The notes under the pieces are model-generated. The model saw nothing but the letters and a program-made list of their open reading frames with translations. It made no database searches and was not told the origin of the DNA. A DNA stretch of 34,267 nucleotides from Candidatus Methylobacter titanis (GTDB lineage: Bacteria; Pseudomonadota; Gammaproteobacteria; Methylococcales; Methylomonadaceae): the NCBI GenBank assembly GCA_029946125.1, contig JAQSDX010000040.1, positions 1-34,267 of the forward strand. The letters are read 5' to 3'. Shown one piece after another: positions 14,992 to 31,761 of this stretch (within the stretch, counting starts at the first letter, position 1; the number at the start of each line of letters is the position of its first letter). The position numbers and the translations under genes are program-made.

Positions 14992-15747
14992 TTAAGCAAA
15001 TAACAGAACAATTCCCCAGGCAAGAAAAGCGACGCCTACAGTTTTACAAATAAGCTTTGATTCGAGTGGCATGGATTTCTCCAATATAACCAACAAGGTG
15101 ATCAAGGCCATTCCCAGCAGGTTCATTACGCCTACGGCAAACATGATCAGCATCTGTGCCCAGCAACAGCCTAAACAGTTTACGCCATGTTTCAGCCCCA
15201 TATTGAATGCGCCTGCTGCGCCATCCTGCCATTCATTTAACAAAAAACCCATTGGGGTTTTGCAGTGTATCAAACAAGCATTTTTTATCGGCATAAACTG
15301 ATAAAAGCCTGCCAAAAATAAAATACCGGCAGCTAATATCGAATTCTGATTCTCCATCATCGGCGATAACCAGGCCAGTCCATGCATTTGCCATTGCAGC
15401 AGCGTTAACGCGCTGCTGAATAACAGCCATATGCCCAGATAGGCCGAAATGAACAGGTAAGTCAGTTTATGGGATATTTTATTTCGTTGTCGGCAAACCC
15501 GGGCAAAGGCCAGAATCATGGGGATTGCTGAAGGCAGCATCATTGCCGCCATCATGACCGCCCACATAAAATAAACCAAAGCGAAATCTGTAAAACGCCA
15601 TGCCAATGGCTCGGAGGGAGGCATCCACATACTCGACATCGGTTGAGATGTCATTTGACCATGCTGATAAAACAGATAGCCCCAGGCAGCAAGAATCCCT
15701 GCCAGTACAACAGCTAATGTAGCCGTCCGGGTTTTAAACCAGCCCAT
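14992..15747 (-). CDS. DUF2182 integral membrane protein (predicted metal-binding)
   Basis: 251 aa with about six to seven membrane helices. Features include WRFTDFALVYFMWAVMMAAM and conserved Cys/His positions in the loop NACLIHCKTPMGF and the segment GVNCLGCCWAQML. DUF2182 is described as a predicted metal-binding membrane family of unknown function. It overlaps the upstream DUF1326 gene by one base (TAATG), a pairing seen in many bacteria, which suggests the two act together, perhaps in metal handling. Confidence 0.88.
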   Translation of the reverse strand: MGWFKTRTATLAVVLAGILAAWGYLFYQHGQMTSQPMSSMWMPPSEPLAWRFTDFALVYFMWAVMMAAMMLPSAIPMILAFARVCRQRNKISHKLTYLFISAYLGIWLLFSSALTLLQWQMHGLAWLSPMMENQNSILAAGILFLAGFYQFMPIKNACLIHCKTPMGFLLNEWQDGAAGAFNMGLKHGVNCLGCCWAQMLIMFAVGVMNLLGMALITLLVILEKSMPLESKLICKTVGVAFLAWGIVLLFA

Positions 15748-16355
15748 TACGGCTGATAAACAAATGCCGAGAAATAACCGTTACACTCGGAAAACTGCCA
15801 GTTTTTATCATAATCCTGATATTGATAATTTTTTGATTTGGCGACAACCGTGGGATGACTTGTTACCACGCACAATGGCGGATTGCTTAGGGTTGCCTGT
15901 CCACCGGTTATGCCCTGGATACTTTCAATATCGGCCTGCGCTATACCGGGAATAGTCATACACCGATTGTTGCCCTGCTCCTGGTAGTCGATTTTTACTT
16001 TTTTTACGCCCAAAACTTCACTGACAAAGCTCATTAAAATAGCTGGATGCCCACCTTGCTGGCCGCTAAAAATTTGCACAATCGCATCAACTTGACTGTC
16101 ATCGGCCCGTTCGTCAATATATAAAGCTGCCTGCCAGTTGCCGTCTATCATGAGTCCAGGGGAGTAACATGCCATGGCAACATTCAAGCCATCCAGTGAT
16201 TGATCACCAAGATGCCCTTGTTCAATATGCCATGCCACCAACAGCTTGCAATCACCTTGTGTCGGCGGTTGCAGCCATACGCAAGGACAGGCGGTTTCGC
16301 AGTTACAGGTTTCAAAATAACTGCCCTGCAAAATCCAGTTTTTGGTTTTCGACAT
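15747..16355 (-). CDS. DUF1326 cysteine-rich protein
   Basis: 202 aa without a signal peptide. The N-terminus carries YFETCNCETACPCVW, the family's conserved Cys cluster, suggesting metal binding or redox activity. The remaining domain is beta-rich (QGDCKLLVAWHIEQG, YIDERADD). Function is unknown. It is co-transcribed with the DUF2182 membrane protein downstream and lies 10 bases after the SDR gene. Confidence 0.88.
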   Translation of the reverse strand: MSKTKNWILQGSYFETCNCETACPCVWLQPPTQGDCKLLVAWHIEQGHLGDQSLDGLNVAMACYSPGLMIDGNWQAALYIDERADDSQVDAIVQIFSGQQGGHPAILMSFVSEVLGVKKVKIDYQEQGNNRCMTIPGIAQADIESIQGITGGQATLSNPPLCVVTSHPTVVAKSKNYQYQDYDKNWQFSECNGYFSAFVYQP

Positions 16356-16365
16356 GCTATCACTC

Positions 16366-17103
16366 CTAAAACGGTTCTTTAAACGGCCTCAAATCCAGTT
16401 CATGAGTCCATGCGCTGGGGTGTTGTTTATGAATGGCCCAATAGGTTTCGGCGATAGCGTCCAGCTGTAACAAACCATCCTTGCCTTTGGCCTTAACATA
16501 GTCGGGAAACTGCTTCTTTGCCCGCTCGCCATCAATCACGCCGTCAATGACAGCGTGAACCACATGTATGCCTTGCGGCGAAAATTCTCTTGCCATGCCT
16601 TGCGCTAATGCCCTTAAACCGGCTTTCGCAGCAGCAAATGCAGTAAACGGCGGCTTTGCTCTTAGTGACGCGGTCGCGCCGGTAAAAATTAGCGTTCCTT
16701 GTTGCTGGCCTTTCATTGCCTTAACCGCTTCCTTGCCGAAAAAGAAGGCACCTAGGCAATTTTGTTGCCAAAGTACGGTAAAGGTTTCCGCATCCGTTTC
16801 CAATAAAGGCGCTGGAATATTGCTGTCTACATTGTAGGCAGCAATATCGAGGCTATAACCATCGAGTTGCGCTATTTTGAATAAATGCGCAACGTCGCGT
16901 TCAACCGTTGCATCGGCGATAACAGCAGTGGCTGAGCCGCCTTTTTGCCTGATTTTTTCTGCTACCTGTTGAAGCTTGTCTTCACTTCGCCCGGCTATAT
17001 AAACATGTAAACCTTTTGTTGCAAAATAGCTGGCGAGTGTCGCGCCCAAGCCCTGCTCCGGACCAACCCCGATGACAACAGCTGAACATTTTTTCTCCAT
17101 CAT
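16366..17103 (-). CDS. SDR-fold oxidoreductase with Phe in place of catalytic Tyr
   Basis: 245 aa Rossmann protein. The dinucleotide loop is VIGVGPEQGLGATLA; the NAG-equivalent segment reads AAYN. The catalytic region has Ser in TGATASLR, but the usual YxxxK is FAAAK. Phe replaces the proton-donating Tyr, a variant that also occurs in an SDR subgroup with the FAxAK...GIHVVHAVIDG ending. It may use a different acid or bind cofactor without classical catalysis. It heads the SDR-DUF1326-DUF2182 operon, with AGGAA just before the ATG ATG start. Confidence 0.85.
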   Translation of the reverse strand: MMEKKCSAVVIGVGPEQGLGATLASYFATKGLHVYIAGRSEDKLQQVAEKIRQKGGSATAVIADATVERDVAHLFKIAQLDGYSLDIAAYNVDSNIPAPLLETDAETFTVLWQQNCLGAFFFGKEAVKAMKGQQQGTLIFTGATASLRAKPPFTAFAAAKAGLRALAQGMAREFSPQGIHVVHAVIDGVIDGERAKKQFPDYVKAKGKDGLLQLDAIAETYWAIHKQHPSAWTHELDLRPFKEPF

Positions 17104-18189: not shown

Positions 18190-19767
18190 TTGACTTCACA
18201 AAACACCATGAAAAACGACTGTCTTTCCGGTTTAACGCCGGTTTTTTTCCTGCAAACTTTCATCCTGGAGCTGATGCATGCCAGCGAACAACAGGGACAA
18301 AAACACTGCGAGCAATTGATCGAACACATTGCCCAAACAGCAGGGGGTTTCTTTGAACAAACCTATCGGGAAGAAACTCACAACAGCGAATTGCTCGACA
18401 AAGAATACTATACCGAACTGATCCTCGGCCTTAAAAACAATATTGGCGGTAAATTTTCCCTGGTTTCCAGTAATCCCGATTGCATTACCGTAACCAACAG
18501 CCGCTGTCCTTTCGGCGACCGGGTGACCAATTTTCCCGAATTGTGCAGAATGACGTCCAGTGTCTTTGGCGGCATTGCCGCCAGAAATTTCGGTTACGCC
18601 AAAGTGGAAATCAAACAAAGCATTGCCCGCCACGACGGTAAGTGTGAAGTGTGTGTCTACACCAATCCAAATGCAGCAAAAGACCGTCCAGGCATGGAAT
18701 ACACCGACACCACACCGGTCAAAGCCATGGAGGATATTAACGAATTGCACTCCCGTATCGAACAGAGCATGCAACAGATTTGGCGGCAACAAAGCAAGCA
18801 ACCGGCAAAAAAACACCAGCCTCCGGCAATTATCGCTAAATCGCCGGCCATGCAGAAAATATTGCAAGCCATCGAAGTGATTGCACCGACGCTGGCAACC
18901 GTGCTGATTCAAGGGCAAACCGGTGTCGGCAAGGAATTGATTGCCCGCGCCATACATGCGATGAGCGACCGCTGCAACAAGCCCTTTATCCCGATTAACT
19001 GCGGCGCCATTCCGGAAAGCTTGATCGAGAGCGCGCTGTTCGGGCATGAAAAAGGCGCATTCACCGGTGCCATCGAAGTGCATCAGGGTTATTTTGAAAG
19101 GGCGGAAGGCGGAACCTTGTTTCTGGATGAAGTCGATTCACTGTCCCCTGCCGCACAAACCCGGCTGCTTCGCGTACTACAAGAAGGCGAACTGGAAAGA
19201 GTCGGCGGTAAGCAAACCTTGTCGGTTGACCTAAGAATAATCTCCGCAACCAATCACAATCTGGAAGAACTGGTTAGGCAAAACCTGTTCCGCAATGACT
19301 TGTATTACCGCATCAACGTGGTTCGCTTAAGCATTCCGCCGCTGGCCGAACGCCCTGAAGATTTGCCGTATCTGGTGCAGTTGATTGTGCAGCGCTTGAG
19401 CAAGAAATATAACAAAGCGGTTGAATCGGTCAGCCGTGAAGTCATGCAAAAAATTCGCGCGTACCCCTGGCCGGGCAATGTCCGTGAACTGGAAAACAGC
19501 CTTGAACGCAGTATTTTATTTGCCACCGGCAAAGAAATGACCGAGTTGGATTTGCCGCTTCAGTCCGAAACAGAAAACAATGCAGAATGGAAAGACATCA
19601 AAGAACGCGTTATTGCCAAAGCTGAACAGGCATTTCTTGACATCGCTCTAAAACAACATCAGGGCGACATCAAAAAAGCAGCAGCAGACATGGGAATCAC
19701 ATCACGTGCTGTTTACACCAAGTTGAAAAAGTATGACATTCATTTAGCGGACTATCGCCGGAGTTAA
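18190..19767 (+). CDS. Sigma-54 activator with N-terminal MetOD1-like Cys sensor domain
   Basis: 525 aa from TTG 18190; ATG 18208 is the alternative start and neither has a strong ribosome site. The N-terminal 160 residues resemble methanogen output domain 1 (MetOD1), with Cys106 (SRCPFGD), Cys119 (PELCRM), and Cys152/Cys155 (GKCEVCVYT), a likely metal or redox site. A helical linker follows, then the AAA+ domain: Walker A GQTGVGKE (242-249), the sigma-54 contact GAFTGA (289-294), Walker B FLDE (311-314). A C-terminal Fis-type HTH (IKKAAADMGITSRAVYTKL) binds DNA. There is no phospho-acceptor receiver, so sensing is probably direct. Confidence 0.88.
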   Translation: MTSQNTMKNDCLSGLTPVFFLQTFILELMHASEQQGQKHCEQLIEHIAQTAGGFFEQTYREETHNSELLDKEYYTELILGLKNNIGGKFSLVSSNPDCITVTNSRCPFGDRVTNFPELCRMTSSVFGGIAARNFGYAKVEIKQSIARHDGKCEVCVYTNPNAAKDRPGMEYTDTTPVKAMEDINELHSRIEQSMQQIWRQQSKQPAKKHQPPAIIAKSPAMQKILQAIEVIAPTLATVLIQGQTGVGKELIARAIHAMSDRCNKPFIPINCGAIPESLIESALFGHEKGAFTGAIEVHQGYFERAEGGTLFLDEVDSLSPAAQTRLLRVLQEGELERVGGKQTLSVDLRIISATNHNLEELVRQNLFRNDLYYRINVVRLSIPPLAERPEDLPYLVQLIVQRLSKKYNKAVESVSREVMQKIRAYPWPGNVRELENSLERSILFATGKEMTELDLPLQSETENNAEWKDIKERVIAKAEQAFLDIALKQHQGDIKKAAADMGITSRAVYTKLKKYDIHLADYRRS

Positions 19768-20911: not shown

Positions 20912-21481
20912 TCAAATAACAGTATGCTCCTGGCATATTTTCTCACTATCAATTTGGCTAAGCGATTCTTTGGTTAAGCCGCAAACGAAGCCATCCGCCG
21001 TTGTGGTGAAATATTTACAGGTTTTGCAAAGTCCAAATGATTGGGATTTGTTGGCTTTTTGCAGTGCGGTCAGCGCACTAACAAAAACATTTTCCTGGCT
21101 ATCATTTTCATTAAATATTGCCGAGGCCTGACTGTATAAATCTGTCGGGCGGGCTTTATTCAGGATAGCATCGCCTTCAGCCAAAAGGCAAAGATGCACC
21201 ACACGCCGGTCATTGACATCGGCTGTTTTTTTAATGTAGCCTTTTTTTTCCAGTAACAGCAAGGTTTGGGAAACCGTGCCGCGGGTCATGCCCAAATAAT
21301 TAGTGAGTGCTGCCGGGGTATCGCTATAACGGTTACAGCGATACAAATAATCCATTACCTGCAAATGAACCGGTTGCAAGCCTAATTCTGTGCATTTTTT
21401 ACGTTCTTCAGACCGGATCAGCGCGGACATCCGCTCGATCAGATCAAATACATCAACTTTTTCCATAGAGCCTGTAAACAT
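20912..21481 (-). CDS. MarR-family regulator with Cys-rich C-terminal tail
   Basis: 189 aa; MEK at 21466 is an alternative start, preceded by ACAGG. The winged-helix core (about 20-115) has the recognition helix in NYLGMTRGTVSQTLLLLEKKGYIKK and the wing DVNDRR. Beyond the core, the tail has CKTCKYF, then one Cys 14 residues on and another near the end (KICQEH), suggesting a zinc or redox-sensitive site. It lies just downstream of the C1-cofactor genes on the same strand. A cofactor-related role is possible but unproven. Confidence 0.87.
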   Translation of the reverse strand: MFTGSMEKVDVFDLIERMSALIRSEERKKCTELGLQPVHLQVMDYLYRCNRYSDTPAALTNYLGMTRGTVSQTLLLLEKKGYIKKTADVNDRRVVHLCLLAEGDAILNKARPTDLYSQASAIFNENDSQENVFVSALTALQKANKSQSFGLCKTCKYFTTTADGFVCGLTKESLSQIDSEKICQEHTVI

Positions 21482-21564: not shown

Positions 21565-22611
21565 TTAACGACCTGCTCTATTCGCTAAATAAGCTATTGC
21601 AGCAGCAGGCGCGCAGTCAGCTGTGGTCATATCGGACAAAATTGCGGCTACCGGGAATAGATCGGAAAAATCCAGATACGGACGCCCTAAATTTAATGCA
21701 ATCTGTTTAACCAGAAAGCGCCCTACTCCGGCACCAATCAATGGGCTGTTTGGCAAAAGCTCGTATTGAGATAACCGAAGCTCACAACCGCGTTGTATTT
21801 GCTGTAGTTGCAGGAGGCGAATATTTTCAGCAAATTGCTGCCAGCGCGGCAGTTCATCGGCATAAAAATCACAACCTATCATCCGCGATAAGCGTCTGGC
21901 ACTGGCAAGGATTGTTTTTTCCGCACCATCTGCCGTGTCGGTTTGATCGTGCATGTCATTGAGTTCACCGGTGACGCGATAGACATCAGCCATGGTCGCA
22001 AAATACTCGGCCATCAAACCGATTTTTTTGCCTTGATCCAGCGCTGTCTGCGTAACGGCCATCACTGCGGTTCTGACGATACCGGTATAAACCAACTCTT
22101 CAGAGAGTAAACGCTGGTAATCGGTATAGCCTTCCGCCAGCACTTGTCCCTTATTAAGCAGCAGTATATCCGTGGTGGTGCTGCCGCAATCAACAAAAAG
22201 CCCGCTGCCGATTTTATGCGCGGCAAAGGTAGCGCTGGCCAGCCAGTTGGCCGAAGCAATGGATGGGTAATGCCGATCTTCAGTCTGCGAGGATTTGACA
22301 AAGCCTTCTAATCCCGCAAAAACCAGCAGTTCAGCTCCCGGCAACAGCTCGGTCATGGTTTGAATGATTTGCCGGACGCCATGCTCCCGATTATCAAACA
22401 AGTCGACCAACTCGCCGGTCATGGTAATCGCATGACGGCAATTTGCACCGGCCAGTTCCTGCATAATGGCGTTTACAGCGCACTGCAGTTGATCGAGTCC
22501 CTTCCATAACGGGCACGGTTGCTGATAAACGGCGATTATACTCCCGGCGCTGATGACCGCCGCCTTGACATGAGCGCCGCCTATATCCCAGCCGATAATA
22601 TTAGTTTGCAT
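21565..22611 (-). CDS. MfnF-like/H4MPT-linked ASKHA protein (hydantoinase A superfamily)
   Basis: 348 aa from ATG 22611, which overlaps the upstream ATP-grasp stop by 11 bases; MFK at 22623 is possible. The ASKHA nucleotide-binding motifs are GWDIGGAHVKAAV (7-19) and DCGSTTTDILLL (141-152). The family is annotated as an H4MPT-linked C1-transfer protein. Its archaeal member MfnF condenses the furan pyrophosphate with tyramine-glutamate in methanofuran synthesis. A matching role in methylofuran synthesis is therefore likely here, by homology from memory rather than a search. Confidence 0.8.
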   Translation of the reverse strand: MQTNIIGWDIGGAHVKAAVISAGSIIAVYQQPCPLWKGLDQLQCAVNAIMQELAGANCRHAITMTGELVDLFDNREHGVRQIIQTMTELLPGAELLVFAGLEGFVKSSQTEDRHYPSIASANWLASATFAAHKIGSGLFVDCGSTTTDILLLNKGQVLAEGYTDYQRLLSEELVYTGIVRTAVMAVTQTALDQGKKIGLMAEYFATMADVYRVTGELNDMHDQTDTADGAEKTILASARRLSRMIGCDFYADELPRWQQFAENIRLLQLQQIQRGCELRLSQYELLPNSPLIGAGVGRFLVKQIALNLGRPYLDFSDLFPVAAILSDMTTADCAPAAAIAYLANRAGR

Positions 22612-23578
22612 AAGTTTGAACATTGATAGCGTTGTTGCAAGTCGGGTTGAGTATCGGCTCGCCATGCAGTAACTGCCAGACGGCTTCGGCAACATTGATG
22701 CCTAAAGCATCGTGTATGCCGACAAATGAACTGGTCAGGCGGGGATTGATTTCAAGCACCCAGGTTTGGTCGGCAGTTTCTATCAGATCGATGCCGGCAT
22801 ACCCCCACAACTCGGGTAATGCCTGGGCTATTTGATCGACCAGTCGCTGATACCGGCCTGGATCTGGATGATGGTTAATCACGATGTCTGTCAAGCGATA
22901 TTGCCGGTTGGTCAGTTCAAAACGCTGCAAATTGACACAGACTAACCAGCCTCGACCCTGCTTGAATAAACATGAAAGACTGGTTGTTGCGCCGTGAAGA
23001 TGCGGCTGGATGATGTATTCACCTTTTCGTGCAGCCATCCGGTCAAAGTCTTGCCGGCTGGAGATCACATGACTGTCGGCACAACCTACGCCATCAACCG
23101 GTTTAACCATCCATTCACCGAGGCAGTAATCATCATCAAACATACGGGTAGGAACGACCGCTATATGATGCCGGTTGAGCAGTTCATACGTCCTGAATTT
23201 ATTACCGGCAATGGCAACCGCTATTGCCGGCGATGTCAGCAATATTTTTCCTGATGATTCGACCCGTTGACATAGGTTTTGTAAAATACCGTCAAATTCC
23301 GGCGCTATCGGCCAGACCAGATCGCATTGCTGGACTAAGCGCGCAAATTCTTCATTCGTATCATGCTCAGGGCCGATGATGACGGTGTTTATGCCGGTCT
23401 TGCCGACTGAATCATTAAGCCGTTCGTCCAGCATGACGGTGATGTCGAGATTGTTGAATCGAACCAGGTTATCGAGCAACGCATTCAGCATCAAACTCCC
23501 TTCTCCAGCCAGGGAATCCGGCAACGCCTGTCTGTTAAAGCCGCCGCCAGTGATATACTCAAACACCAGAATTTTCAC
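22601..23578 (-). CDS. ATP-grasp ligase of the methylofuran/H4MPT cluster (MfnD-like?)
   Basis: 325 aa from GTG 23578, chosen because it yields the family-typical start MKILVFEYITGGGF; upstream in-frame starts would add unlikely residues running into a palindrome. ATP-grasp features: WMVKPVDGVGCADS (Lys for ATP), IIQPHLHGATTSLSCL, and the metal-binding VLEINPRLTSSFVG near the C-terminus. Archaeal MfnD, an ATP-grasp protein, joins tyramine to glutamate. Adjacency to the MfnF-like gene makes a similar or polyglutamylating role plausible. The 3' end overlaps the next gene. Confidence 0.82.
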   Translation of the reverse strand: MKILVFEYITGGGFNRQALPDSLAGEGSLMLNALLDNLVRFNNLDITVMLDERLNDSVGKTGINTVIIGPEHDTNEEFARLVQQCDLVWPIAPEFDGILQNLCQRVESSGKILLTSPAIAVAIAGNKFRTYELLNRHHIAVVPTRMFDDDYCLGEWMVKPVDGVGCADSHVISSRQDFDRMAARKGEYIIQPHLHGATTSLSCLFKQGRGWLVCVNLQRFELTNRQYRLTDIVINHHPDPGRYQRLVDQIAQALPELWGYAGIDLIETADQTWVLEINPRLTSSFVGIHDALGINVAEAVWQLLHGEPILNPTCNNAINVQTYAN

Positions 23579-23624
23579 AATCTTCAATAAACAGTTATCA
23601 ATTAGTATGTAATATTGTATCACC

Positions 23625-23646
23625 AGTTCAAAGCGAGCTTTGAACT
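23625..23646. promoter_or_regulatory. 22-bp palindrome in divergent promoter region
   Basis: AGTTCAAAGC (23625-23634) and GCTTTGAACT (23637-23646) are perfect inverted arms with a GA centre. They sit in the 126-base gap between the ATP-grasp gene (-) and the HisA-like gene (+). No regulator is known for it. It is a candidate shared operator or an RNA hairpin in the leader. Confidence 0.55.
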
Positions 23647-23704
23647 CTGGTATCGGTGTTTTTTGGAGTCCAGACTTCGCTTTAGCCTCAAACCTTGTTT
23701 TTTT

Positions 23705-24448
23705 ATGAAAATAATCCCGGTAATAGATTTAAAAGACGGTGTCGTCGTTCACGCCCGGCAAGGCAATCGTGAGCTTTATCAACCCATTAACACCGGCTTG
23801 TGCAAGTCGTCTGATATTTTTCAGGTTATCGATGCCTTTCTGGGTATTTATGAATTTGACACGTTCTATATTGCAGACCTGAATGCGATTACCGGTCAAG
23901 GCGGCCATAATCCTTTAATAGCCGACGTACTGACTCGTTTTCCGCACATCACCTTCTGGATAGACCAGGGTTGTCAGCCATATGCTCAGCGCGCGCACGG
24001 CAATACCCTGCCTGTTTTGGGCAGTGAATCGTATCGGGATGAATCTATTGCAGAAATTAAAGCTTATAAAAACAACTTTATTCTGTCGCTGGATTATGCA
24101 AATTCGAAGGCTTTGGGTGCGCCTAGCCTTTTTGCTGACCCGTCTTTTTGGCCGGAAAATATTATCATCATGACGTTGGAGCGCGTAGGCAGTAATCGCG
24201 GCCCGGATCTGAACAAGTTAACTGAATTTTGCAGGAAAAATCCCGACAAAAACTTTATTGCCGCAGGCGGCATAAGACATAAACAGGATTTAATGGCTTT
24301 GAGTGAGGCAGGAATTCATCAGGCGCTAGTTGCCAGTGCATTGCATTCCGGCATTATTAAAGCTGAAGATATTAAAATTTTAGGCAAAGTTTCCGCTCCC
24401 AGCTCACGCCCGAACCCTAGGGACGTGGTGAACGCAAATATAGCATAA
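23705..24448 (+). CDS. HisA/HisF-like TIM-barrel protein linked to C1 cofactor synthesis
   Basis: 247 aa from ATG 23705, chosen because it gives the HisA-like start MKIIPVIDLKDGVVVHARQG. The (beta-alpha)8 phosphate-binding half is seen in NFIAAGGIRHKQDL and HQALVASALHSG. It is shorter and divergent from histidine-pathway HisA, and no other his genes are nearby. The HisA/HisF-related family occurs in methanogens and methylotrophs beside H4MPT genes, and its reaction is not established to my knowledge. It is the only gene of the island on the plus strand. A classical HisA is less likely. Confidence 0.78.
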   Translation: MKIIPVIDLKDGVVVHARQGNRELYQPINTGLCKSSDIFQVIDAFLGIYEFDTFYIADLNAITGQGGHNPLIADVLTRFPHITFWIDQGCQPYAQRAHGNTLPVLGSESYRDESIAEIKAYKNNFILSLDYANSKALGAPSLFADPSFWPENIIIMTLERVGSNRGPDLNKLTEFCRKNPDKNFIAAGGIRHKQDLMALSEAGIHQALVASALHSGIIKAEDIKILGKVSAPSSRPNPRDVVNANIA

Positions 24449-24493
24449 CGCCATGGATGGCGTGTAGTAGAGTAATGCAGGAGCCATTACCGA
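24448..24493 (+). repeat. Second copy of hairpin-type dispersed repeat
   Basis: ACGCCA-TGGA-TGGCGT (24448-24463) is a perfect 6-bp hairpin starting at the last base of the HisA-like stop codon. It is followed by a GTAGTAGAGTAATGCAGGAG tail ending in CCGAG. The order of motifs matches 17994-18052, indicating a shared repeat family. Confidence 0.45.
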
Positions 24494-24520
24494 GTGCCTT
24501 GCCTACAATCCTATAGGCAA

Positions 24521-24550
24521 AAAAATACCCCGGTTTAACGGGGTATTTTT
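24521..24550. terminator. Bidirectional intrinsic terminator between HisA-like gene and fae
   Basis: A 12-bp perfect stem, AAAAATACCCCG (24521-24532) and CGGGGTATTTTT (24539-24550), with a 6-base loop. A-tract and T-tract on both sides allow termination of both the plus-strand HisA-like gene and the minus-strand fae. Confidence 0.92.
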
Positions 24551-24575
24551 AACATTCTTGATAACTAAATAAAAC

Positions 24576-25085
24576 TTAGTTAGCAGCGAATGGATGTACA
24601 GCAGTACCTTTAGCAGCAACAACTTCAGCAGCAGTAGGTGAACCAGCAATAGCGCGTTTCAAAGCTTCTTTAGTCGCTTCGTAGTTGTATTGTTGGATTT
24701 TAGCATCGTCTTCTGCAGCCCAGTGAATAAACACACCAACTGATACGAATAAATCATCAGCTTCAGCAGCAGGGATTGTGCCGTCTTCTACACAATCAGC
24801 AACAGCCATAGCAACACCACGTTGTGCTGGGCCAAACATTTGAACAGCTTGTTTTGCGCCTTTGATGGTTACTTTGTTGAACATAACAGTTGCTGGTTTA
24901 ACCATCAAGTTAGGTGCAACAACAGCCAATAAGCTAGAAAAGCCGTCTTTGTTGTTTGTTAAGCAGTTTGCAAATGCTGTTTCAGCAGCTGAACCACGTG
25001 GTCCAACCATTAAATCGATGTGAGCAACTTCGTTGCCTTCGCCAATTAAAGATTCGCCAACGCATAATTTATTGATTTTAGCCAT
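24576..25085 (-). CDS. fae: Formaldehyde-activating enzyme
   Basis: 169 aa from ATG 25085, preceded by AGGGGA; the frame is open further upstream, but family length and this ribosome site settle the start. Fae condenses formaldehyde with H4MPT to methylene-H4MPT in the cytoplasm, the entry step of the formaldehyde oxidation pathway. Family hallmarks: [18 protein letters not shown] with His22, [41 protein letters not shown] and the HPFAAN C-terminus. A strong Shine-Dalgarno, an efficient terminator and its own upstream region suggest high expression from a dedicated promoter. Confidence 0.97.
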
Positions 25086-25204
25086 GCTTAATGTCCCCTG
25101 TGAAGAAAAAAATGAAAAAATTGAATCTACTATCGACACTTTAAATGTCCCCTTATTTGTTTTAAACAAATACTTTTGAAGCCCTATTAGTAACAGTATT
25201 GTTA
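25086..25204 (-). promoter_or_regulatory. fae leader region with two palindromes and a duplicated motif
   Basis: Two perfect palindromes lie here: ATTTGTTT-T-AAACAAAT (25155-25171) and, overlapping the upstream CitG-like stop, ATTAGTAACA-GTAT-TGTTACTAAT (25186-25209). In the minus-strand sense AGGGGACATT occurs twice (25144-25153 and 25090-25099), the second copy providing the Shine-Dalgarno. The arrangement looks like an operator-rich promoter for an independently regulated fae. No clear -35/-10 pair could be chosen. Confidence 0.55.
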
Positions 25205-26053
25205 CTAATTAAGATCCTCTAAAAATGCCGTTAATACTGTCGCCACGATCATGTCAGCTGTAGTACCCGGATTTATACCGTAAAATTTAAGCTCCTGATC
25301 CAAGCAAAAAAGCAACGGCTTTATTTGTTTAGGATTATCAGTTTTAGAAAACTCCTCACTAAGCTGAGCCATTTTCATAGCCACCATCTCAGTGTACTGA
25401 TCTCCATATTTCCTTTCAATATGACTATCTGGAAATTGACTTAGCATATCAGCATATACTGCCGCCGCCGCCCAATTCCTGTCACGCCATTGATTAAAAA
25501 AAATATTATACCTCAAAACCGAGAAATTAAAAATATCGTTATAATCCGTTATGTATTGAAGCGCAATGCGGTCTTTTGCGCTGGCTAATTTCATCGCCTC
25601 AAACAAGGTAACCGAGGCCTGCTCATTGACATCCTGCTGGTCAGAGCGACCCAAGCCACCCGGCGACGCTAAGGTTATGGCTTTGAAAACCCAATCGGCA
25701 TCTTCTATCGTTGCCTCGCTAATGACCTTAGCGACCGCCTGCTTTAAGCTTAAATCCGATTTTTTATAACTGCTTGCCTGAATCAGCGGCGCACAAAGCA
25801 AGATAATACCCAGATTGGTATTGCAACCCACCGCCTCACGCGTGGCCTTGACCGCATAATAGATTTTTTCACCCAGGGAATAATCAAGATTGCAAAGAGG
25901 CCCAGCGCTGACCTCGGCACTGATTCTAAAATCGGCCACGGTCATATCATGCCCATCCGCATAAACACTGACATTGCCGGGCTTAAAGGCCTGCACATCG
26001 ACCTCGCAGGCCTGGCGATAAAGCTCACTGAGCTGCCGGGACGAAATCGTCAT
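25205..26053 (-). CDS. CitG/MdcB-like triphosphoribosyl-dephospho-CoA synthase family protein
   Basis: 282 aa. Family motifs: KPGNVS (24-29) then DGHDMT (33-38), [10 protein letters not shown] (77-86), and [13 protein letters not shown]. Classical CitG/MdcB joins ATP ribose to dephospho-CoA by an alpha-1'',2' linkage, with loss of adenine, to make the prosthetic group of citrate lyase or malonate decarboxylase. No such enzymes are encoded here, and this family has members inside H4MPT islands, so a cofactor-building role is more likely. ATGA overlap with the upstream RimK-like gene indicates coupling. Confidence 0.85.
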
Positions 26054-26961
26054 GCGACTGCAAACAACTCGGTTTTGCCTATCTTGCGGGTGATTAAATC
26101 ATCGACCATCAGCTCGGCAACATTGACATCGCAAACGCTTTCCAGGCCTTTCCATGCCGGTATGCTATTAACTTCAATGACCGTACAGCGCCCTTCCCTA
26201 TCACGAATAATATCGACGCCGGCATAATCCATCGCCAATGCAGTCGTCGCGTTAACGGCCAAATTTACCATTTCCGGCTCTAAATCGATCAGCTCGCAGG
26301 TCGCGCCCCTGGCAACGTTATTCAGCCAGAATTTTCCGCGCCTGCGCATTGCGGCAACCGCCCGGCCGTTAATCACAAAAACGCGATTGTCGGAAAAACC
26401 GACGCCTTCGCATTGAACGAAACGTTGCAGATAATAAACGCCATGACTGCCGGTTAACCAGAACAGGTCGGTCGTTTTTTCAATGCGGCGTATGCCTTCG
26501 CCCTGCGAGCCGAACAGCGGCTTACTGATCAGTAGATTACCCTGCTTTAATTCAGCTTCCGCAATCCTTAACGCTGCTTCCCGGTCACGCAGCACCCAGG
26601 TCATCGGCGTGGGCAATCCCGCATTATGCAGCAGAAAACTGGTCATAGCCTTGTCGACACTGCGCTCTACCGCGTGGCCGTCATTGTAGACAGGAATCCC
26701 CATGGCCTTTAGCGCATGCAGAATATCCAAATACAACACGACCTCTTCAAGCGAACCGCCGGGAACACCGCGGACAAAAACCGCATCGGGAAGCTCGTGC
26801 TCGAAGCCTGGAATCAGGATCGGCAGTTGGCCGGGTTCGATGACAAACCGACATTGAGTCAACGAAACGTAGTCTGCGCTATAACCCCGACTGGCAAAGG
26901 CCAGGCTTAATTGCTTGCCATGCCAGCCGGGATCATCGGTAAAAATCGCTATACGACCCAC
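26050..26961 (-). CDS. RimK-like ATP-grasp ligase of the H4MPT island
   Basis: 303 aa from GTG 26961, two bases after the mch stop. ATP-grasp features: LLISKPLFGSQGEGIRRI (ATP-binding Lys and Gly-rich loop), YYLQRFVQCEG, and the metal-binding IEVNSIPAWKGLE. It resembles RimK and archaeal MptN/CofF alpha- and gamma-glutamyl ligases. It could add glutamate to dephospho-H4MPT or extend methylofuran's polyglutamate chain. The exact substrate is unassigned. Confidence 0.85.
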   Translation of the reverse strand: MGRIAIFTDDPGWHGKQLSLAFASRGYSADYVSLTQCRFVIEPGQLPILIPGFEHELPDAVFVRGVPGGSLEEVVLYLDILHALKAMGIPVYNDGHAVERSVDKAMTSFLLHNAGLPTPMTWVLRDREAALRIAEAELKQGNLLISKPLFGSQGEGIRRIEKTTDLFWLTGSHGVYYLQRFVQCEGVGFSDNRVFVINGRAVAAMRRRGKFWLNNVARGATCELIDLEPEMVNLAVNATTALAMDYAGVDIIRDREGRCTVIEVNSIPAWKGLESVCDVNVAELMVDDLITRKIGKTELFAVA

Positions 26962-26963
26962 GC

Positions 26964-28001
26964 CTACGTTCTCGGCAACTGCTCCTGCGTTGCTCTATCT
27001 CCTGCATCCTTGCAGTCGTACGCCCCAAACGATTGGTCCAGCAAGACATTGTCCAGCCTGCCCGCACGGAAACTTTTTCCGGATTCTACCGCAGTCACAA
27101 TGACGCTGGCAGGACTGAACAACATCGCATCGATTTTAAAGAAGTCGTATTCGTACTGCTTGAAGATTTCCGCAAATGGTTTGCCGTAATCTTTAGAGGT
27201 TGAGCTGGGCAGTTCGTTAGCCAGCTTTTCAGCCGCTTCATCGCTGCCTTTGACAAAAATATGCACCTGTCCGGCGAACAAAATCGCGTCATTAGTACGC
27301 CCCATGGCTTTGACAAAGTTAGGGTGCGGAGGACAGATAGGCGCACTGCCGCTGCCGTCGATAATATTTTCCAACGGAAAATGCAGGGCATGAGCCTTGT
27401 GCATAGCCACTTCAAGCACCCGCGCCACCACTTGCACACCGCCGGCCAGACTGCTGGTCGGCGTCACGATGATAGTCAGCTTGGACGGATCGACCTTGCA
27501 GGCGGCAGCCACTTTTTCGACGATTTCAACCGGCGGCAGCGCATCATTTTCAATCACCAAAACCGTAGAATCATGGCTGTCCTGATAATCCAGCTCTTTG
27601 TACAAGTCTTCAACCGGTTCCTGTTTGCCGTTTTTTAACTTGGTTGCCATAGCCCGCGCAGGACCTGAGCCTAAGGCGTAATATTTCTCATGCGACAAAC
27701 TCCAGCCCGCATATTGACTACCCAAACAACCCAGAACCGGATTGCCGGTGTGCACATTCACCGACAACGGCCAGTTATCGGTATAGGTGCTGTGATTGAT
27801 GGTGACAGTACCCATGCCGCCAAGGCAGATTTCGGCAATAATGCGTCCCGCCTCGATGCCGCCCGGCACTTTAATGCCCGCATCGATAATGGTGCAGCCA
27901 TTGGCTAAGGTTTCCACACCCAAACGCAGTTTGTCGGCATGATCGAGCAAATGCTGCACCAAGGGCTGGGTCAATTTATTAACGCTGGCTGTATATTCCA
28001 T
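26964..28001 (-). CDS. mch: Methenyl-H4MPT cyclohydrolase
   Basis: 345 aa from ATG 28001; an in-frame TTG at 28010 overlaps the upstream stop and is less likely. The enzyme hydrolyses methenyl-H4MPT to 5-formyl-H4MPT in formaldehyde oxidation. Diagnostic segments: [64 protein letters not shown] and [25 protein letters not shown]. It is the central enzyme of the island, flanked tightly by two ATP-grasp genes. The formyltransferase/hydrolase complex and mtdB are outside the window. Confidence 0.97.
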
Positions 28002-28006
28002 GAAGA

Positions 28007-29134
28007 TCAAAACCTTTCTAGTTTATTAAGGATAAGTTGTTGTTTAATCAGCAGCTGTACAGCTGCTGACCGTGAGTGTTTTTGGTGGGCAATAATACTG
28101 CAAATCGGCCGCCTTGTGGGAACAAATGCACCTGGCTTAGGCAAATCCATACACCATTCGGGCCATTCGAAATAATCGGGAATGGTTAAATCATGCGTGG
28201 CATAAACAATTTGACAGGCTGTCTGTGGAGGCGATTGTAGGGGCGACTTTAGTCGCCCAGTTGCCAAAAACAGGGCGACTGAAGTCGCCTCCACAGACAG
28301 ACTCCTACAGGATTGAATATGCCGAGCCAGCAAACCCTGATCATATAACTGCATACTGGCGGAGGGCCGGGGATTAATTTCCAGCACATAACTGCAATCA
28401 TCCGCATGAATAAAATCCAGCGAATTCAAGCCCTTTAGCGCAAACACCTGAACCATTTGTTTTAGCCAAGCCGTTATCACGGCTTTATGCGCATCAGCCA
28501 GATCGCAGCTATTGCTCACGCCTGAAAAAACAAATTCCTGAGCCTTACTTAAACGCACACACCACTGGCTATTAAAGCCGACGACTTGCACCTGTTGCCC
28601 GTCAGCCAGAAACAGTACCGAATGCGGCGTGCCAGCCTGAAACTTTTGCCAGTAAACCGAATTATCGACACCGTCATCAGCCTGATAACGCCTTATCCCG
28701 ACACCGCCCTGCCCTCGCATAGGTTTAAGCAACCAACCCTCTGCGCAATCAGGCGCATCAAAAACAACCTCGGGGTACGGAATGTTTAACTGCTTCAGTG
28801 TCGAAAAAAACGCCTGCTTATCCAGTTGCCTTGCAAAAACATCAGGATCATTGCCCAGCAACATCAAGCGGCTATTCAGGTAATGCAAGCTTTGGGGGAA
28901 ACATTCAAAACCGCTACCGTAAATGACATCGGTGACGGCATAGCGCTCGATAAAATAATCTACGGCAGGAGCCAAGTCTCGCTCGGCCAATGACTTTACC
29001 TGACGGAAATCTTCCGCTAAAGCTTGCGTGTCCAGATCGGCAAACAGGTCAATAACCAGCGGCTTCAAGCCAATATTGGTTGCCGCCTGCGCCAGCATGC
29101 GTCCTGAACTGGCGACAATCAGTATCGTTTCCAT
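28007..29134 (-). CDS. ATP-grasp ligase with in-frame palindromic repeat insertion
   Basis: 375 aa. An N-terminal domain ([19 protein letters not shown]) precedes the ATP-grasp core: [18 protein letters not shown] (Lys plus Gly loop), [27 protein letters not shown] with metal-binding Glu and Asn. Near the C-terminus about 26 codons are made of a repeat (28221-28298), after which family-like sequence resumes. It lies just downstream of mptG and upstream of mch. ATP-grasp proteins at this position are a regular part of bacterial H4MPT islands; the substrate is unknown. Confidence 0.85.
28221..28298. repeat. Palindromic repeat element inside the ATP-grasp gene
   Basis: Outer 14-bp perfect inverted arms, GTCTGTGGAGGCGA (28221-28234) and TCGCCTCCACAGAC (28285-28298), enclose two smaller hairpins: GGGCGACT-TT-AGTCGCCC (28241-28258) and GGCGACT-GA-AGTCGCC (28274-28289, loop 28281-28282). 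This is the structure of a REP/MITE-like mobile repeat. It is read through in the open frame without a stop. Confidence 0.9.
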
Positions 29135-29144
29135 AAGTCAGATG

Positions 29145-30107
29145 CTAACCCACAAAAACATCCCCTCCACTGTTCCGCGCACTGGCAACCACAAAACTCA
29201 AGTTATCGAAATGCGCAAACTCCAGTCTGGCCTGATCGGTGATTGATTCCGCCAACTGCGCCCCATCAATGGCGCAAAACCCGGTCGGCCCCCATGAGGT
29301 TTGACCGATAGCCACCGCACCTTGCTGCTCCAGCCATTGCATGGCGGCCGCAACTTCGGGACTGGTAAAAACGCCGCCCTGAGCCGAGGAAAAATGTTCG
29401 CCAACCGAGCGTTGCAGTTGGCTGATCACATCGCCAAATTGAATAATATCGTTTTCAGCCACCGCAGGCAGACCCTGCATCAGCAATAAATAGCATAAGC
29501 GTGCCGCTTCCTGCCGGGGAAAAGGCGGCAGCTCTTTAAAGGCCTGTATTTCCTGCTGACCGTGCAGACCCTGGCCGCGCTGATCGAACACCAGAATAAA
29601 CCGCCAGTCATCCGGTACATCCATGTGCGCCAGCACCGGCGGGGTGATGGTTTTTTCGCCGCGTCCGCCATCGACAACCAGGCCGCCTTGTTCAAAAACG
29701 CCGATGCCGATGCCGGAACGCAAACCCCGGTCGGTCACGGCGGCGATTTCACGCACAGTAAGCCCCAAACCGTAAAATTCATTCAGCGCCGCGCCGAGTG
29801 CCAGAGACATTTGTGTGCCTGAACCCAGGCCCACATGCTCCGGAATCGCGGATTCAATGGTGATCTTGAGCTTGTCTGATACTTGCAGCGCCTCGCACAA
29901 TAGGGACACACACTTTCTTGCCCGCTGTGCGGCGGGGCCGGTAATGGTCAGTTGCTCGGCGCCGGTTACCGACAGGCTGGTGCTGATTTCATTAAGCGCA
30001 ACACCGATGCTGCCGAAATGTCGGCCTAATGATCCGCTTAAATCGATAAAGCCCATGTGCAATCTGGCCGGGGCAATGACTGAGACTTTAGAATGTTGAA
30101 CTATCAA
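29145..30107 (-). CDS. mptG: Beta-ribofuranosylaminobenzene 5'-phosphate synthase
   Basis: 320 aa GHMP-like enzyme that condenses p-hydroxybenzoate or p-aminobenzoate with PRPP, the first committed step of methanopterin biosynthesis. Start segment VIAPARLHMGFIDLSG, the GHMP motif PEHVGLGSGTQMSLALG (89-105), YGLGLTVREIAAVTDRG, FEQGGLVVDGGRG and a C-terminal GQTSWGPTGFCA. The only suitable start is TTG 30107, with no clear Shine-Dalgarno. Neighbouring H4MPT genes confirm the call over homoserine-kinase-type alternatives. Confidence 0.93.
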   Translation of the reverse strand: MIVQHSKVSVIAPARLHMGFIDLSGSLGRHFGSIGVALNEISTSLSVTGAEQLTITGPAAQRARKCVSLLCEALQVSDKLKITIESAIPEHVGLGSGTQMSLALGAALNEFYGLGLTVREIAAVTDRGLRSGIGIGVFEQGGLVVDGGRGEKTITPPVLAHMDVPDDWRFILVFDQRGQGLHGQQEIQAFKELPPFPRQEAARLCYLLLMQGLPAVAENDIIQFGDVISQLQRSVGEHFSSAQGGVFTSPEVAAAMQWLEQQGAVAIGQTSWGPTGFCAIDGAQLAESITDQARLEFAHFDNLSFVVASARNSGGDVFVG

Positions 30108-30145
30108 GGGTTATGACTGTATTTATGCTGCAAAAAATTGCTGAA

Positions 30146-30151
30146 AGTATA
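30146..30151 (-). promoter_or_regulatory. Possible extended -10 promoter of mptG
   Basis: On the minus strand TGTATACT gives an extended -10 (TATACT) about 38 bases before the mptG start, in the 68-base gap after the HAD gene. The -35 is poor. It would let mptG and downstream genes be expressed apart from the NTase and HAD genes. Confidence 0.35.
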
Positions 30152-30175
30152 CATGATCGGCCTATCGGCTGCGAA

Positions 30176-30838
30176 CTAAGCGCAAATCGCGTTCATCAAT
30201 TGAACTAAATCCTCCATCATCAAATCGCACAGTTCAACCGTCAACGGATCGACCTGCGCTGTCGACGGTATAAACGCCGAAACAGCTCCTGCTCTAAATG
30301 CCGCCACGATACCGGCATGAGAGTCTTCAATCACCAGGCACCGGCTAATATCCACTTGCAATACTTCTGCGGCTTTTAAAAAAATATCCGGCTCCGGCTT
30401 ACCCTGCTGAACGTGATCGCGGCTGATAACGATTGGAAAAACCTCTTTGATTCCGGCCAGCTCAAGGCATTCCAGCGCATTAACGGCCCGACTGTTAGTC
30501 GCCAGACAATAGGGTATTTTTTGCCGGATCAGCATTTCCATCAATCCGCTAAAGCCGTGTTTGATATTGATGCCGTGGACATTGACATGATCACGCCAGC
30601 AATCGCCGCTGAGCCGGTTAAAGCTTTGCAGATCAAATTCGGCCCCACAATAGTCGATCAGTTTCAGCTCTACATCCTGATAATGCAGCCCTGACAACGA
30701 CCGCCAAAAATCTCCGGAAAAATCATAGCCCATAACACTTGCAGCCTGTTTCCAGGCGACAATGTAAGTGCTCTCGGTATCCAAAACCAAACCGTCCATA
30801 TCGAAAATAACCGCAGCAAAATCAGCTAACTTATGCAC
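30176..30838 (-). CDS. HAD-superfamily (subfamily IA) phosphatase
   Basis: 220 aa. Motif I FDMDGLVLDTES places the nucleophile Asp13 and Asp15. A helical cap follows, then motif II CLATNSRAV, motif III Lys in QQGKPEPDIFLKA, and motif IV LVIEDSHAGI. It resembles phosphoglucomutase- or phosphoglycolate-type HAD enzymes. Overlap by 13 bases with the nucleotidyltransferase gene ties it to the island, where it might remove a phosphate from a pterin or furan intermediate. Substrate is unassigned. Confidence 0.9.
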   Translation of the reverse strand: MHKLADFAAVIFDMDGLVLDTESTYIVAWKQAASVMGYDFSGDFWRSLSGLHYQDVELKLIDYCGAEFDLQSFNRLSGDCWRDHVNVHGINIKHGFSGLMEMLIRQKIPYCLATNSRAVNALECLELAGIKEVFPIVISRDHVQQGKPEPDIFLKAAEVLQVDISRCLVIEDSHAGIVAAFRAGAVSAFIPSTAQVDPLTVELCDLMMEDLVQLMNAICA

Positions 30839-31761
30839 TGAATAACCTTGATATATTCCCCGTGCGCTTCACGGCTGGAGCCGACCACGATACGCTGAAC
30901 GCCCTGTTCCGATTGTTCCAGAACGCCCGACACTTCGACCCTTTCGCCGCTGATGGCCTGCCCTGTATAGGTCGCCGTAAAGCTGACGATAGCACTGATC
31001 TGCTGATGATCTATTTTAAATTCAGCCGGATAATCGAATGCGTGACTATCGTCAATCACCCTGCACTGCAAGCTAACCGCACCGTATTTTTGATAACTGA
31101 CAGTCTCAGAACTTGCGCTATCATCGATAAAATTCAAATCGAATTTCCGCCCGTTGATCACGGCCTTGTTGCATTTACGCCGTTCGTGCCAGACATAGTC
31201 ATCGAAACTCAACTCGCATGACCGGCGCGCGTAAGATTGCTGCCAATCCTGCTCATTCAGTTCTTGCAACTTTCCCAATCCAATAAGCTTACGGGTAATG
31301 GCCCGGAATTGGTGAAAAACCTCCCTGCCGTAACAAACCAGATCCATATCCGAAGCTTGGTTTTGAACGCCAACCAATATTGATCCGGTGATTCCGGTTT
31401 GCATTAAATCCAGCCCGTGCTGTTGAAATAACCCGCACAACCGGAACAAATCGCTCTCCACAGCGTCATGCCGCATTGATTGCATCAGCTGTTGCAATCG
31501 GTGTTTGGGTTGATGATGCTTGATGATCCGGTCTACGGCGACCGCATGCAAATGCGCATCCAAGACCGGAGAATAATGCAGATAATCGGGGTGGTTTTGT
31601 TCGAGGAAGTCATTAGCCTCTAAGGTCTGATATTTTTTCCAGCCGCAAAGTTCGCGCACATAACGTAAAAAACACAACACCTTGCCATCTTCCAGGCCCC
31701 GCTCTACCACAGCGAAAATAAGCCCTTCAGCGGTTTCAATGAAATCTTTGGCAAAAAACAT
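30826..31761 (-). CDS. Predicted DNA polymerase beta-type nucleotidyltransferase
   Basis: 311 aa. The nucleotidyltransferase signature GSILVG...SDMDLV gives Gly126-Ser127 and catalytic Asp138/Asp140, followed by FDLNFID as a candidate third acid. The N-terminal domain has ELCGWKKYQ, and the C-terminal about 90 residues look OB-like (GQAISGERVEVSGVLE). It resembles archaeal predicted nucleotidyltransferases (COG1665-like, from memory). It heads the minus-strand island, coupled to the HAD gene. No function is established; cofactor adenylylation or transfer is a hypothesis. Confidence 0.75.
   Translation of the reverse strand: MFFAKDFIETAEGLIFAVVERGLEDGKVLCFLRYVRELCGWKKYQTLEANDFLEQNHPDYLHYSPVLDAHLHAVAVDRIIKHHQPKHRLQQLMQSMRHDAVESDLFRLCGLFQQHGLDLMQTGITGSILVGVQNQASDMDLVCYGREVFHQFRAITRKLIGLGKLQELNEQDWQQSYARRSCELSFDDYVWHERRKCNKAVINGRKFDLNFIDDSASSETVSYQKYGAVSLQCRVIDDSHAFDYPAEFKIDHQQISAIVSFTATYTGQAISGERVEVSGVLEQSEQGVQRIVVGSSREAHGEYIKVIQCIS

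Follow-up and report, generated by a model that had tools for sequence, protein, structure and literature searches.

A CitG-like protein encoded in an archaeal-like C1 gene cluster of Candidatus Methylobacter titanis as a candidate enzyme of tetrahydromethanopterin synthesis

Gene content of the island and its published counterparts

The analysed stretch, contig JAQSDX010000040.1 of Candidatus Methylobacter titanis (34,267 nucleotides, hereafter the window; genome assembly of 3.5 Mb, whose gene content points to a gammaproteobacterial methylotroph), contains an island of 11 protein genes at positions 21565-31761, ten on the minus strand and the HisA-like gene orf17 on the plus strand (Table 1). 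In methanogenesis, as in methylotrophic bacteria, one-carbon (C1) units are carried by tetrahydromethanopterin (H4MPT). The island is of the published archaeal-like C1 cluster type, by which bacteria living on methanol or methane make two one-carbon coenzymes, and most of its genes already have printed roles. On balance we consider it probable that Orf7, the CitG-like protein of this cluster, acts in the pterin arm, most likely as the ATP-dependent alpha-ribosyl transferase of dephospho-H4MPT synthesis, and that the HAD phosphatase and nucleotidyltransferase (NTase) genes are a lineage-specific neighbour. Gene content, gene order, co-occurrence and neighbourhoods were observed here, and the roles of MyfA, MyfB and Orf17 are as published in the available text of PMC8141765. 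Profile evidence came from Pfam and NCBIfam family models. A previous sequence-only reading of the island had named fae, mch, mptG and the other gene classes; all are present, and profile matches confirmed the classes, weakly for the NTase.

Table 1. Protein genes of the island, with positions in the window and profile evidence
Gene or product	Position	Strand	Evidence
Orf9, MfnF-like ASKHA protein	21565..22611	-	Open reading frame (ORF) to 22695; Hydantoinase_A/TIGR03123 'H4MPT-linked C1 transfer' 322.7 bits, cut-off 244.1
MfnD-like ATP-grasp (Orf1 of the literature), candidate tyramine/tyrosine-glutamate ligase	22601..23578	-	ORF to 23623; preATP-grasp_3/ATP-grasp_3; MfnD_Meth 111.9 bits
Orf17, HisA-like barrel	23705..24448	+	ORF from 23615; His_biosynth PF00977 70.8 bits; TIGR00734 94.9 bits, under cut-off
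fae, formaldehyde-activating enzyme	24576..25085	-	ORF to 25169; TIGR03126 245.4 bits
Orf7, CitG-like	25205..26053	-	PF01874 216.6 bits (gathering score 27)
MyfB/Orf5, RimK/MptN-like glutamate ligase	26050..26961	-	MptN_Meth 205.8 bits, cut-off 350
mch, methenyl-H4MPT cyclohydrolase	26964..28001	-	ORF to 28010; TIGR03120 445.7 bits
MyfA/OrfY-type ATP-grasp (probable)	28007..29134	-	ATP-grasp_3 70 bits; MfnD_Meth 23.5 bits
mptG, beta-RFAP synthase	29145..30107	-	TIGR00144 181.8 bits, cut-off 113.5
HAD-family phosphatase	30176..30838	-	HAD_2 PF13419 90.1 bits
NTase-like protein with flanking beta domains	30826..31761	-	PF01909 E=0.031, 15.1 bits, cut-off 21; SDxD motif

The packing of the genes was assessed with the starts judged likeliest, which are not always the first ATG, GTG or TTG of the frame (mfnF 22611 or 22623, mfnD GTG 23578, orf17 ATG 23705, fae ATG 25085, mch ATG 28001). 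The orf7 and myfB frames overlap by 4 bp, the HAD and NTase frames by 13 bp, and mfnF and mfnD by 11-23 bp according to the start chosen; gaps of 2, 5 and 10 bp separate myfB from mch, mch from myfA, and myfA from mptG. The description of most frames as overlapping or nearly so thus holds for many joins (overlaps of 4 to about 20 bp, gaps of 2-10 bp) but not for the gaps of about 70 bp from mptG to the HAD gene and about 120 bp from fae to orf7, nor for orf17 on the opposite strand. MptG passed the subfamily cut-off of TIGR00144, and its score with the equivalog NF040726 (205.3 bits) was below the cut-off of that model, 328. Scans of the window for tRNA and Rfam families gave no match, and promoter and terminator scans gave no signal above the shuffled level.

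For comparison, the island proteins were mapped in 17 further genomes of the phylum, on stretches of roughly 20 kb surrounding RFAP synthase and Orf7. In all 17, orf7 adjoins myfB; mch, myfB and orf7 are contiguous in 16, the exception being L053 with about 7 kb between, and fae lies at most 0.4 kb after orf7 in 14. The myfA gene is located between mptG and mch in 14 genomes as well; it was not detected in L058 and L059, and mptG is elsewhere in G187. Orf17 was found in 12 of the 17 stretches, MfnF in 11 and the MfnD-like gene in three; in G369 the cluster is divided over two contigs. As much of the order recurs in these genomes, the order of the island is more than chance. A gene resembling mtdB lies between mptG and myfA in other genomes, with a plausible frame in 6 of 10 loci examined, and an Azospirillum plasmid record annotates the gene at this position as mtdB.

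The cluster of Methylorubrum extorquens and Methylosinus trichosporium, as far as described in the available text of PMC3615186 and PMC8141765, shares the genes and order mch-myfB-orf7-fae-orf17 with the island; for M. trichosporium the order is given as mch-orf5-orf7-fae-orf17 (PMC3615186), and orf1 has been named as mfnD (PMC5020050). Unlike that cluster, the island has no mtdB-like gene between mptG and myfA, carries the HAD and NTase genes upstream of mptG, and includes an MfnD-like gene. The genome also holds a second gene group, on contig C66, with DHPS, an AfpA/DmrX-like flavoprotein, a TIGR00284 DHPS-like protein, DUF447 and MfnB; MfnB and DUF447 scored above their Pfam cut-offs, and the AfpA/DmrX-like and TIGR00284-like proteins below their NCBIfam cut-offs.

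Several of the genes are assigned to methylofuran synthesis. According to the available text of PMC8141765, deletion combined with liquid chromatography-mass spectrometry identified OrfY/MyfA in M. flagellatus, and Orf5/MyfB and Orf17 in M. extorquens, as required for methylofuran; MyfB forms polyglutamate in vitro and polyglutamylates methylofuran, as shown for M. extorquens; Orf9 is the MfnF homologue, coupling the furan and tyrosine/tyramine portions; and six strains have an additional, more MfnD-like protein. The three ATP-grasp proteins of the island fit this scheme, because the MfnD model scored 111.9 bits with the 22601-23623 frame and only 23.5 bits with the ATP-grasp before mch, and the MptN model 205.8 bits with the RimK-like protein. 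As 111.9 bits is below the cut-off of the MfnD equivalog NF040722 (400), the 22601-23578 protein is classed as MfnD-like only; Orf9 likewise passed TIGR03123 and scored 143.8 bits, below the cut-off of 520, with the MfnF equivalog NF040623. With MyfA and MyfB of PMC8141765 the island shares the ATP-grasp families, the placement on either side of mch and the MptN likeness of MyfB; it differs in that its MyfA is recognised by position and a weak MfnD likeness (MfnD_Meth, E 3.2e-5 over residues 156-261). The 28007-29134 product is probably of the MyfA/OrfY type, placing the second glutamate onto methylofuran, and MyfB is predicted, from its MptN/RimK likeness and its place between mch and orf7, to lengthen the polyglutamate chain. 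A REP-like element is present inside the MyfA/OrfY frame (28216-28312), with the palindrome GGCGACTnnAGTCGCC in two exact copies at 28242-28257 and 28274-28289; shuffling gave an expectation of zero for this pair, which among 310 loci was present only in L004, the same place.

Orf17 scored below all curated HisA/HisF cut-offs. In an alignment with E. coli HisA and HisF, it kept both Asp positions, which are catalytic in those enzymes, and the C-terminal GG motif, and it had lost the N-terminal GG motif. It thus shares the Asp pair and C-terminal GG motif with HisA (ProFAR isomerase) and differs from it in the N-terminal GG motif and the sub-cut-off scores. The motif pattern makes it a fair guess that Orf17 isomerises a substrate carrying a single phosphate. 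A function was sought for it among methylofuran reactions; the HisA-type Asp positions are kept, yet no candidate reaction could be named.

The sequence-only reading had proposed that these genes fill a gap of glycosyl, phosphate and glutamyl steps in the synthesis of the two coenzymes. The genes do serve methylofuran and dephospho-H4MPT synthesis, but most are not unassigned, as MyfA, MyfB, MfnF, the MfnD-like protein and Orf17 figure in the available text of PMC8141765; the glutamyl part of the gap is largely filled, because the roles given there for MyfA, MyfB and the MfnD-like protein fit the window. What remains of the gap idea is Orf7 together with DUF447, a neighbour of RFAP synthase or CitG elsewhere. 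As late as 2011, a survey of two Methanothermobacter genomes put the estimated number of proteins still unknown in H4MPT synthesis at seven (PMC3087415, in its available text).

Family, co-occurrence and neighbourhoods of Orf7

Orf7 shares the Pfam family with CitG and MdcB, the triphosphoribosyl-dephospho-CoA synthases of citrate lyase and malonate decarboxylase, and keeps the KPG, N, G, PG and AD positions of E. coli CitG, which suggests the same kind of reaction on another acceptor. By its motifs and tree position, it is placed in a subfamily of the CitG family distinct from the citrate/malonate enzymes: Orf7 has KPGN, NTNLG and NPGT in place of KPGL, NTHKG (or similar) and SPGG. KPGN was found in the Orf7 rows, in nine other archaeal rows and in 9 of 14 Thermoproteota rows, most of which also have NPGT or similar. 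In a tree of 41 rows, with weak deep forks and some long rows, E. coli CitG, Azospirillum CitG, two MdcB proteins, a CitX-CitG fusion and one of two Synergistaceae proteins formed a separate long branch (100/100), and Orf7 grouped with Acidobacteria, Gemmatimonadota and the other Synergistaceae protein (99/95). The predicted model of Orf7 (pLDDT 94.0) had a single PDB match at E<=0.001, Archaeoglobus fulgidus 3h9p (TM-score 0.64/0.81), which was also its only PDB sequence match (22% identity); this archaeal protein is deposited as a 'putative triphosphoribosyl-dephospho-CoA synthase', its function being putative. Orf7 might in principle be a true CitG/MdcB, supplying a lyase or decarboxylase with the triphosphoribosyl-dephospho-CoA prosthetic group, as its Pfam CitG score and the name triphosphoribosyl-dephospho-CoA synthase given to such genes in public records would suggest. 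This is very improbable, given the motifs and the separate branch, the lack of any match at E<=1e-3 to an NCBIfam model, those for CitG and MdcB included, and the lack of CitX, MdcG and acyl carrier families among the 30 window proteins scanned with Pfam; the window offers no citrate lyase or malonate decarboxylase context. On family models, motifs and tree, citrate/malonate CitG was set aside as the identity of Orf7.

Co-occurrence was examined in two phylum samples, labelled here 'Pseudomonadota' (398 genomes of the window's phylum) and 'Thermoproteota' (121 genomes from the phylum to which G433, a 'Thermoprotei archaeon', belongs). Among the 398, RFAP synthase above the TIGR00144 cut-off was present in 20 and Orf7 in 18, all within the 20 (Fisher p 3e-29, uncorrected for kinship). 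Weak RFAP synthase matches below the cut-off (G027, G380) were excluded from the 20, and G015 and G174, above the cut-off, were kept as positive for RFAP synthase and negative for Orf7. The RFAP synthase family proteins of G015 and G174 match the model only to position 296, and no other island gene was found in the 20 kb stretch of G015. Divergent family members (H69-H73, 24-25% identity) were also seen, with no C1 gene annotated around H69 in L064; these and the G015 and G174 proteins are perhaps other C-glycoside synthases like ForT (PDB 6yqq).

The bacterial genomes cannot tell the pterin arm from the furan arm; therefore archaea were examined, using the whole Pfam CitG family rather than the Orf7 subfamily. 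From 80 RFAP synthase loci, 46 genomes were chosen and 45 searched (26 haloarchaea and 19 others; L074 was left out). The CitG family was present in 40 of the 45 and Mch in 41. In the haloarchaea, the CitG family and Mch were each found in 25 of 26 and MfnB, the furan-ring enzyme, in none; MfnB was found in 11 of the 19 others. Among 14 named control genomes, five have the CitG family: E. coli, M. jannaschii, H. volcanii, S. acidocaldarius and M. acetivorans. RFAP synthase was found in all of these except E. coli, Mch in three (M. jannaschii, H. volcanii, M. acetivorans) and MfnB in only two (M. jannaschii, M. acetivorans), so that H. volcanii and S. acidocaldarius have the CitG family and RFAP synthase and neither has MfnB.

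In the Thermoproteota, RFAP synthase was counted at >=80 bits, a threshold set after the scores had been seen and below the curated 113.5, which gives 33 of 121. The CitG family was found in 51 genomes, RFAP synthase at >=80 bits in 44 and both in 40 (Fisher p 2e-17, again uncorrected for kinship), and 32 of these 40 had no Mch match. The sequence-only reading had regarded homologues without fae or mch as telling against its proposal. Such homologues do exist for the archaeal CitG family, with no Mch match in 33 of the 51 genomes (Fae was not searched there), but 32 of the 33 have RFAP synthase at >=80 bits, indicating that the CitG family tracks coenzyme synthesis and not C1 transfer. Seven Thermoproteota genomes (G530, G533, G557, G562, G570, G622, G628) had a Mch match and neither RFAP synthase at 80 bits nor the CitG family, the G530 match containing several stops.

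The proposed ribosyltransferase was expected to occur with RFAP synthase rather than with methanofuran genes, and this was borne out, with the exceptions given below and for the whole CitG family in archaea. A role of Orf7 in methylofuran synthesis, like that of MyfB and Orf17, would agree with the adjacency of orf7 and myfB in 17 of 17 other genomes. It is nevertheless quite improbable: the CitG family is present in 25 of 26 haloarchaea and MfnB in none, it is present in 32 Thermoproteota that have RFAP synthase and no Mch (MfnB was not searched in those 121 genomes), and it lies near mptG-mptA-mptE in seven Thermoproteota. Retention of the CitG-like gene in haloarchaea without MfnB led us to set aside Orf7 as a methylofuran gene.

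These seven Thermoproteota regions were picked for CitG and RFAP synthase within 11 kb of each other, out of 40 genomes that have both genes and 21 that have them on a single contig, and they may come from close relatives. In each, a CitG-DUF447 pair and an mptG-mptA-mptE trio lie within about 8-14 kb, the Pfam names for the mptA and mptE neighbours being GTP cyclohydrolase and MptE-like, and none of the seven is among the 27 Thermoproteota genomes with Mch. MptA and MptE make the pterin precursor, so the CitG-DUF447 pair is in direct company with methanopterin synthesis. In the non-haloarchaeal RFAP synthase loci, DUF447 abuts mptG or lies at most 0.7 kb away in 12 of 19, detected with a profile built partly from loci in which DUF447 was then found. 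Nine CitG regions fetched from the 25 haloarchaea with a CitG-family gene (L183-L191) all contain the row CofD, MJ0144/Dus-like TIM-barrel protein, CitG-like protein and DUF447; the MJ0144/Dus-like protein of this row may be one more coenzyme gene. On a Halobellus limi plasmid (L063), DUF447 lies between Mer and RFAP synthase. A second haloarchaeal arrangement, Mer-DUF447-RFAP synthase-MetE, was seen in L063 and L122; in the genome of L122 (G419), neither the CitG family nor Mch was found.

Four DUF447 structures (3b5m, 2iml, 2nr4, 2ptf) are deposited as uncharacterised. DUF447 is a flavin-binding split barrel, which would be better suited to reduction. In the part of the openly licensed literature consulted, no link of CitG-like or DUF447 proteins to methanopterin was found; DUF447 proteins have been guessed to form cannulae (PMC13140500, in its available text), and this guess does not fit the neighbourhoods seen here.

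The HAD and NTase genes

In an alignment of 22 rows (the window protein and 21 of 30 loci of the window's order; L207, L208, L211, L227 (stop in matched stretch), L215, L220, L223 and L224 were left out), residues G126, S127, S137, D138, D140 and D208 of the NTase were invariant, giving the SDxD motif and a further Asp, with the PF01909 score below its cut-off. A structural relative was sought with the AlphaFold model (pLDDT 91.2); the model is confident, yet no PDB entry matched at E<=0.001, the best fold matches (E 3.5e-3, TM-score 0.2) being poly(A) polymerase and OB-containing proteins.

A dedicated role of the pair in dephospho-H4MPT synthesis of this lineage, through phosphate removal and nucleotidyl chemistry, is suggested by its distribution in the window's order. 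Of 81 genomes, 60 have the NTase and 59 RFAP synthase, with three discordant (NTase alone in G458 and G488, RFAP synthase alone in G519); in 25 of the 30 loci the 1.5 kb NTase flanks include the HAD gene, and in 16 they include mptG as well. We consider such a role unlikely. The 20 genomes with neither NTase nor RFAP synthase fall in only two families, so the pattern may reflect kinship, and 9 of the 30 loci have the pair with no mptG inside the 1.5 kb flank. Neither gene was found in any of the 17 other stretches of about 20 kb, and the NTase was found in none of the 19 other genomes with RFAP synthase in the 398-genome sample, where the only strong NTase match was the window's own and one other reached E 8.6e-4. 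Distant homologues (24-26% identity, 20 records) are carried on Streptomyces plasmids; their neighbours in the 3 of 20 regions viewed include phosphotransferase and histidine phosphatase genes, with no C1 gene annotated nearby. The suggestion that the two genes fill the cofactor gap therefore fails outside the window's order, and on the 17 stretches and the 398-genome search they are set aside as general pathway genes. The NTase is probably not a general part of the pathway; the pair is a lineage-specific addition, for which a pathway role in that lineage is possible, with no support elsewhere.

Three further features lie on the other side of the island: a MarR-family regulator (20912-21481) on the same strand, just downstream of its mfnF end; a sigma-54 activator with a MetOD1 (methanogen output) domain a few kb away (18190-19767); and a row of a PpoB2 copper chaperone family protein, DUF1326 and SDR (14992-17103).

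Proposed role of Orf7 in methanopterin synthesis

Placement of Orf7 in the pterin arm is well supported, because the CitG family tracks RFAP synthase even where MfnB or Mch was not found, and pairs with DUF447 near mptG-mptA-mptE. CitG transfers the triphosphoribosyl group of ATP to a hydroxyl, forming an alpha bond, and methanopterin carries an alpha-ribosyl group on its ribitol; for these two reasons we put Orf7 at the ribosylation step. Under this proposal, the island would encode two C1 enzymes (Fae and Mch), most of the methylofuran line (the MfnD-like and MfnF-like proteins and Orf17, with MyfA and MyfB then building the polyglutamate tail) and two proteins of dephospho-H4MPT synthesis, MptG (RFAP synthase) and Orf7. 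Orf7 would transfer ribosyl-5-(tri)phosphate from ATP, releasing adenine in a CitG-type reaction, to the 5-OH of the aminophenyl-deoxyribitol intermediate, forming the alpha-ribosidic bond, and bacteria would afterwards remove the phosphates to give dephospho-H4MPT. The ribosyltransferase activity itself, its donor and the fate of the phosphates are what we infer here.

Alternatively, Orf7 may act at another step of the pterin arm, with ribosylation performed by DUF447 or another protein. The association data would suit any step and DUF447 keeps the same company, but the CitG core common to Orf7 favours ribosyl transfer and DUF447, as a flavin-binding split barrel, would fit reduction better; we regard this alternative as rather doubtful. 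Returning to Orf7 as the ribosyltransferase, a tentative extension is that Orf7-type CitG proteins might be the absent ribosyltransferase of methanopterin-type coenzymes at large, putting an ATP-derived 5-triphosphoribosyl group on the ribitol chain. Archaea might then use the triphosphate, in a CitX-like manner, for the phosphodiester to hydroxyglutarate and bacteria hydrolyse it, with DUF447 providing an adjacent step, perhaps a reduction that opens the RFAP ribose.

Several points weigh against the assignment. White's work reportedly names phosphoribosyl pyrophosphate, not ATP, as the phosphoribosyl donor in methanogens, a point against ATP as donor in the proposal, and association alone cannot separate ribosylation from another absent step. 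Orf7 is lacking in G015 and G174, which have RFAP synthase. In the archaea, where the search covered the CitG family as a whole, 5 of the 45 genomes with RFAP synthase lack CitG (four of them also Mch); in the Thermoproteota, 11 of 51 CitG genomes lack RFAP synthase at 80 bits (10 of these with Mch), 4 of 44 RFAP synthase genomes lack CitG, and so do 9 of 27 Mch genomes. Two Thermoproteota rows of the tree (L282, L287) have KPGL and, with moderate support, fall on the CitG/MdcB side, and three rows are very divergent. CitG lies within about 10 kb of RFAP synthase in only 1 of 61 haloarchaeal RFAP synthase loci (L091), and no DUF447 was found beside CitG in seven further Thermoproteota regions or in 10 other CitG regions (L192-L199, L201, L202). 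For the cluster as a whole, MyfA is identified by position and a weak likeness to MfnD. Finally, in its available text PMC8305020 holds that haloarchaea rely on tetrahydrofolate and lack methanopterin-specific enzymes, and regards the haloarchaeal RFAP synthase homologue HVO_2628 as probably not an RFAP synthase; neither DUF447 nor triphosphoribosyl occurs in its main text. If that account is right, the haloarchaeal data show only that CitG-like protein, DUF447 and the RFAP synthase homologue keep together in a different pathway; the case for Orf7 from Thermoproteota and bacteria would still stand.

Taken together, the cluster itself is ordinary and mostly explained already, and Orf7 and DUF447 emerge as testable candidates for absent steps of H4MPT synthesis. 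The HAD and NTase genes are dropped from the likely general pathway enzymes, and two families whose labels mislead or say nothing ('triphosphoribosyl-dephospho-CoA synthase' and DUF447) become named candidates with tractable hosts and solved structures, 3h9p for the former and the four deposited entries for the latter. If the tentative extension is right, haloarchaea and many Thermoproteota without Mch would make a methanopterin-like carrier, contrary to the tetrahydrofolate-only view of haloarchaea.

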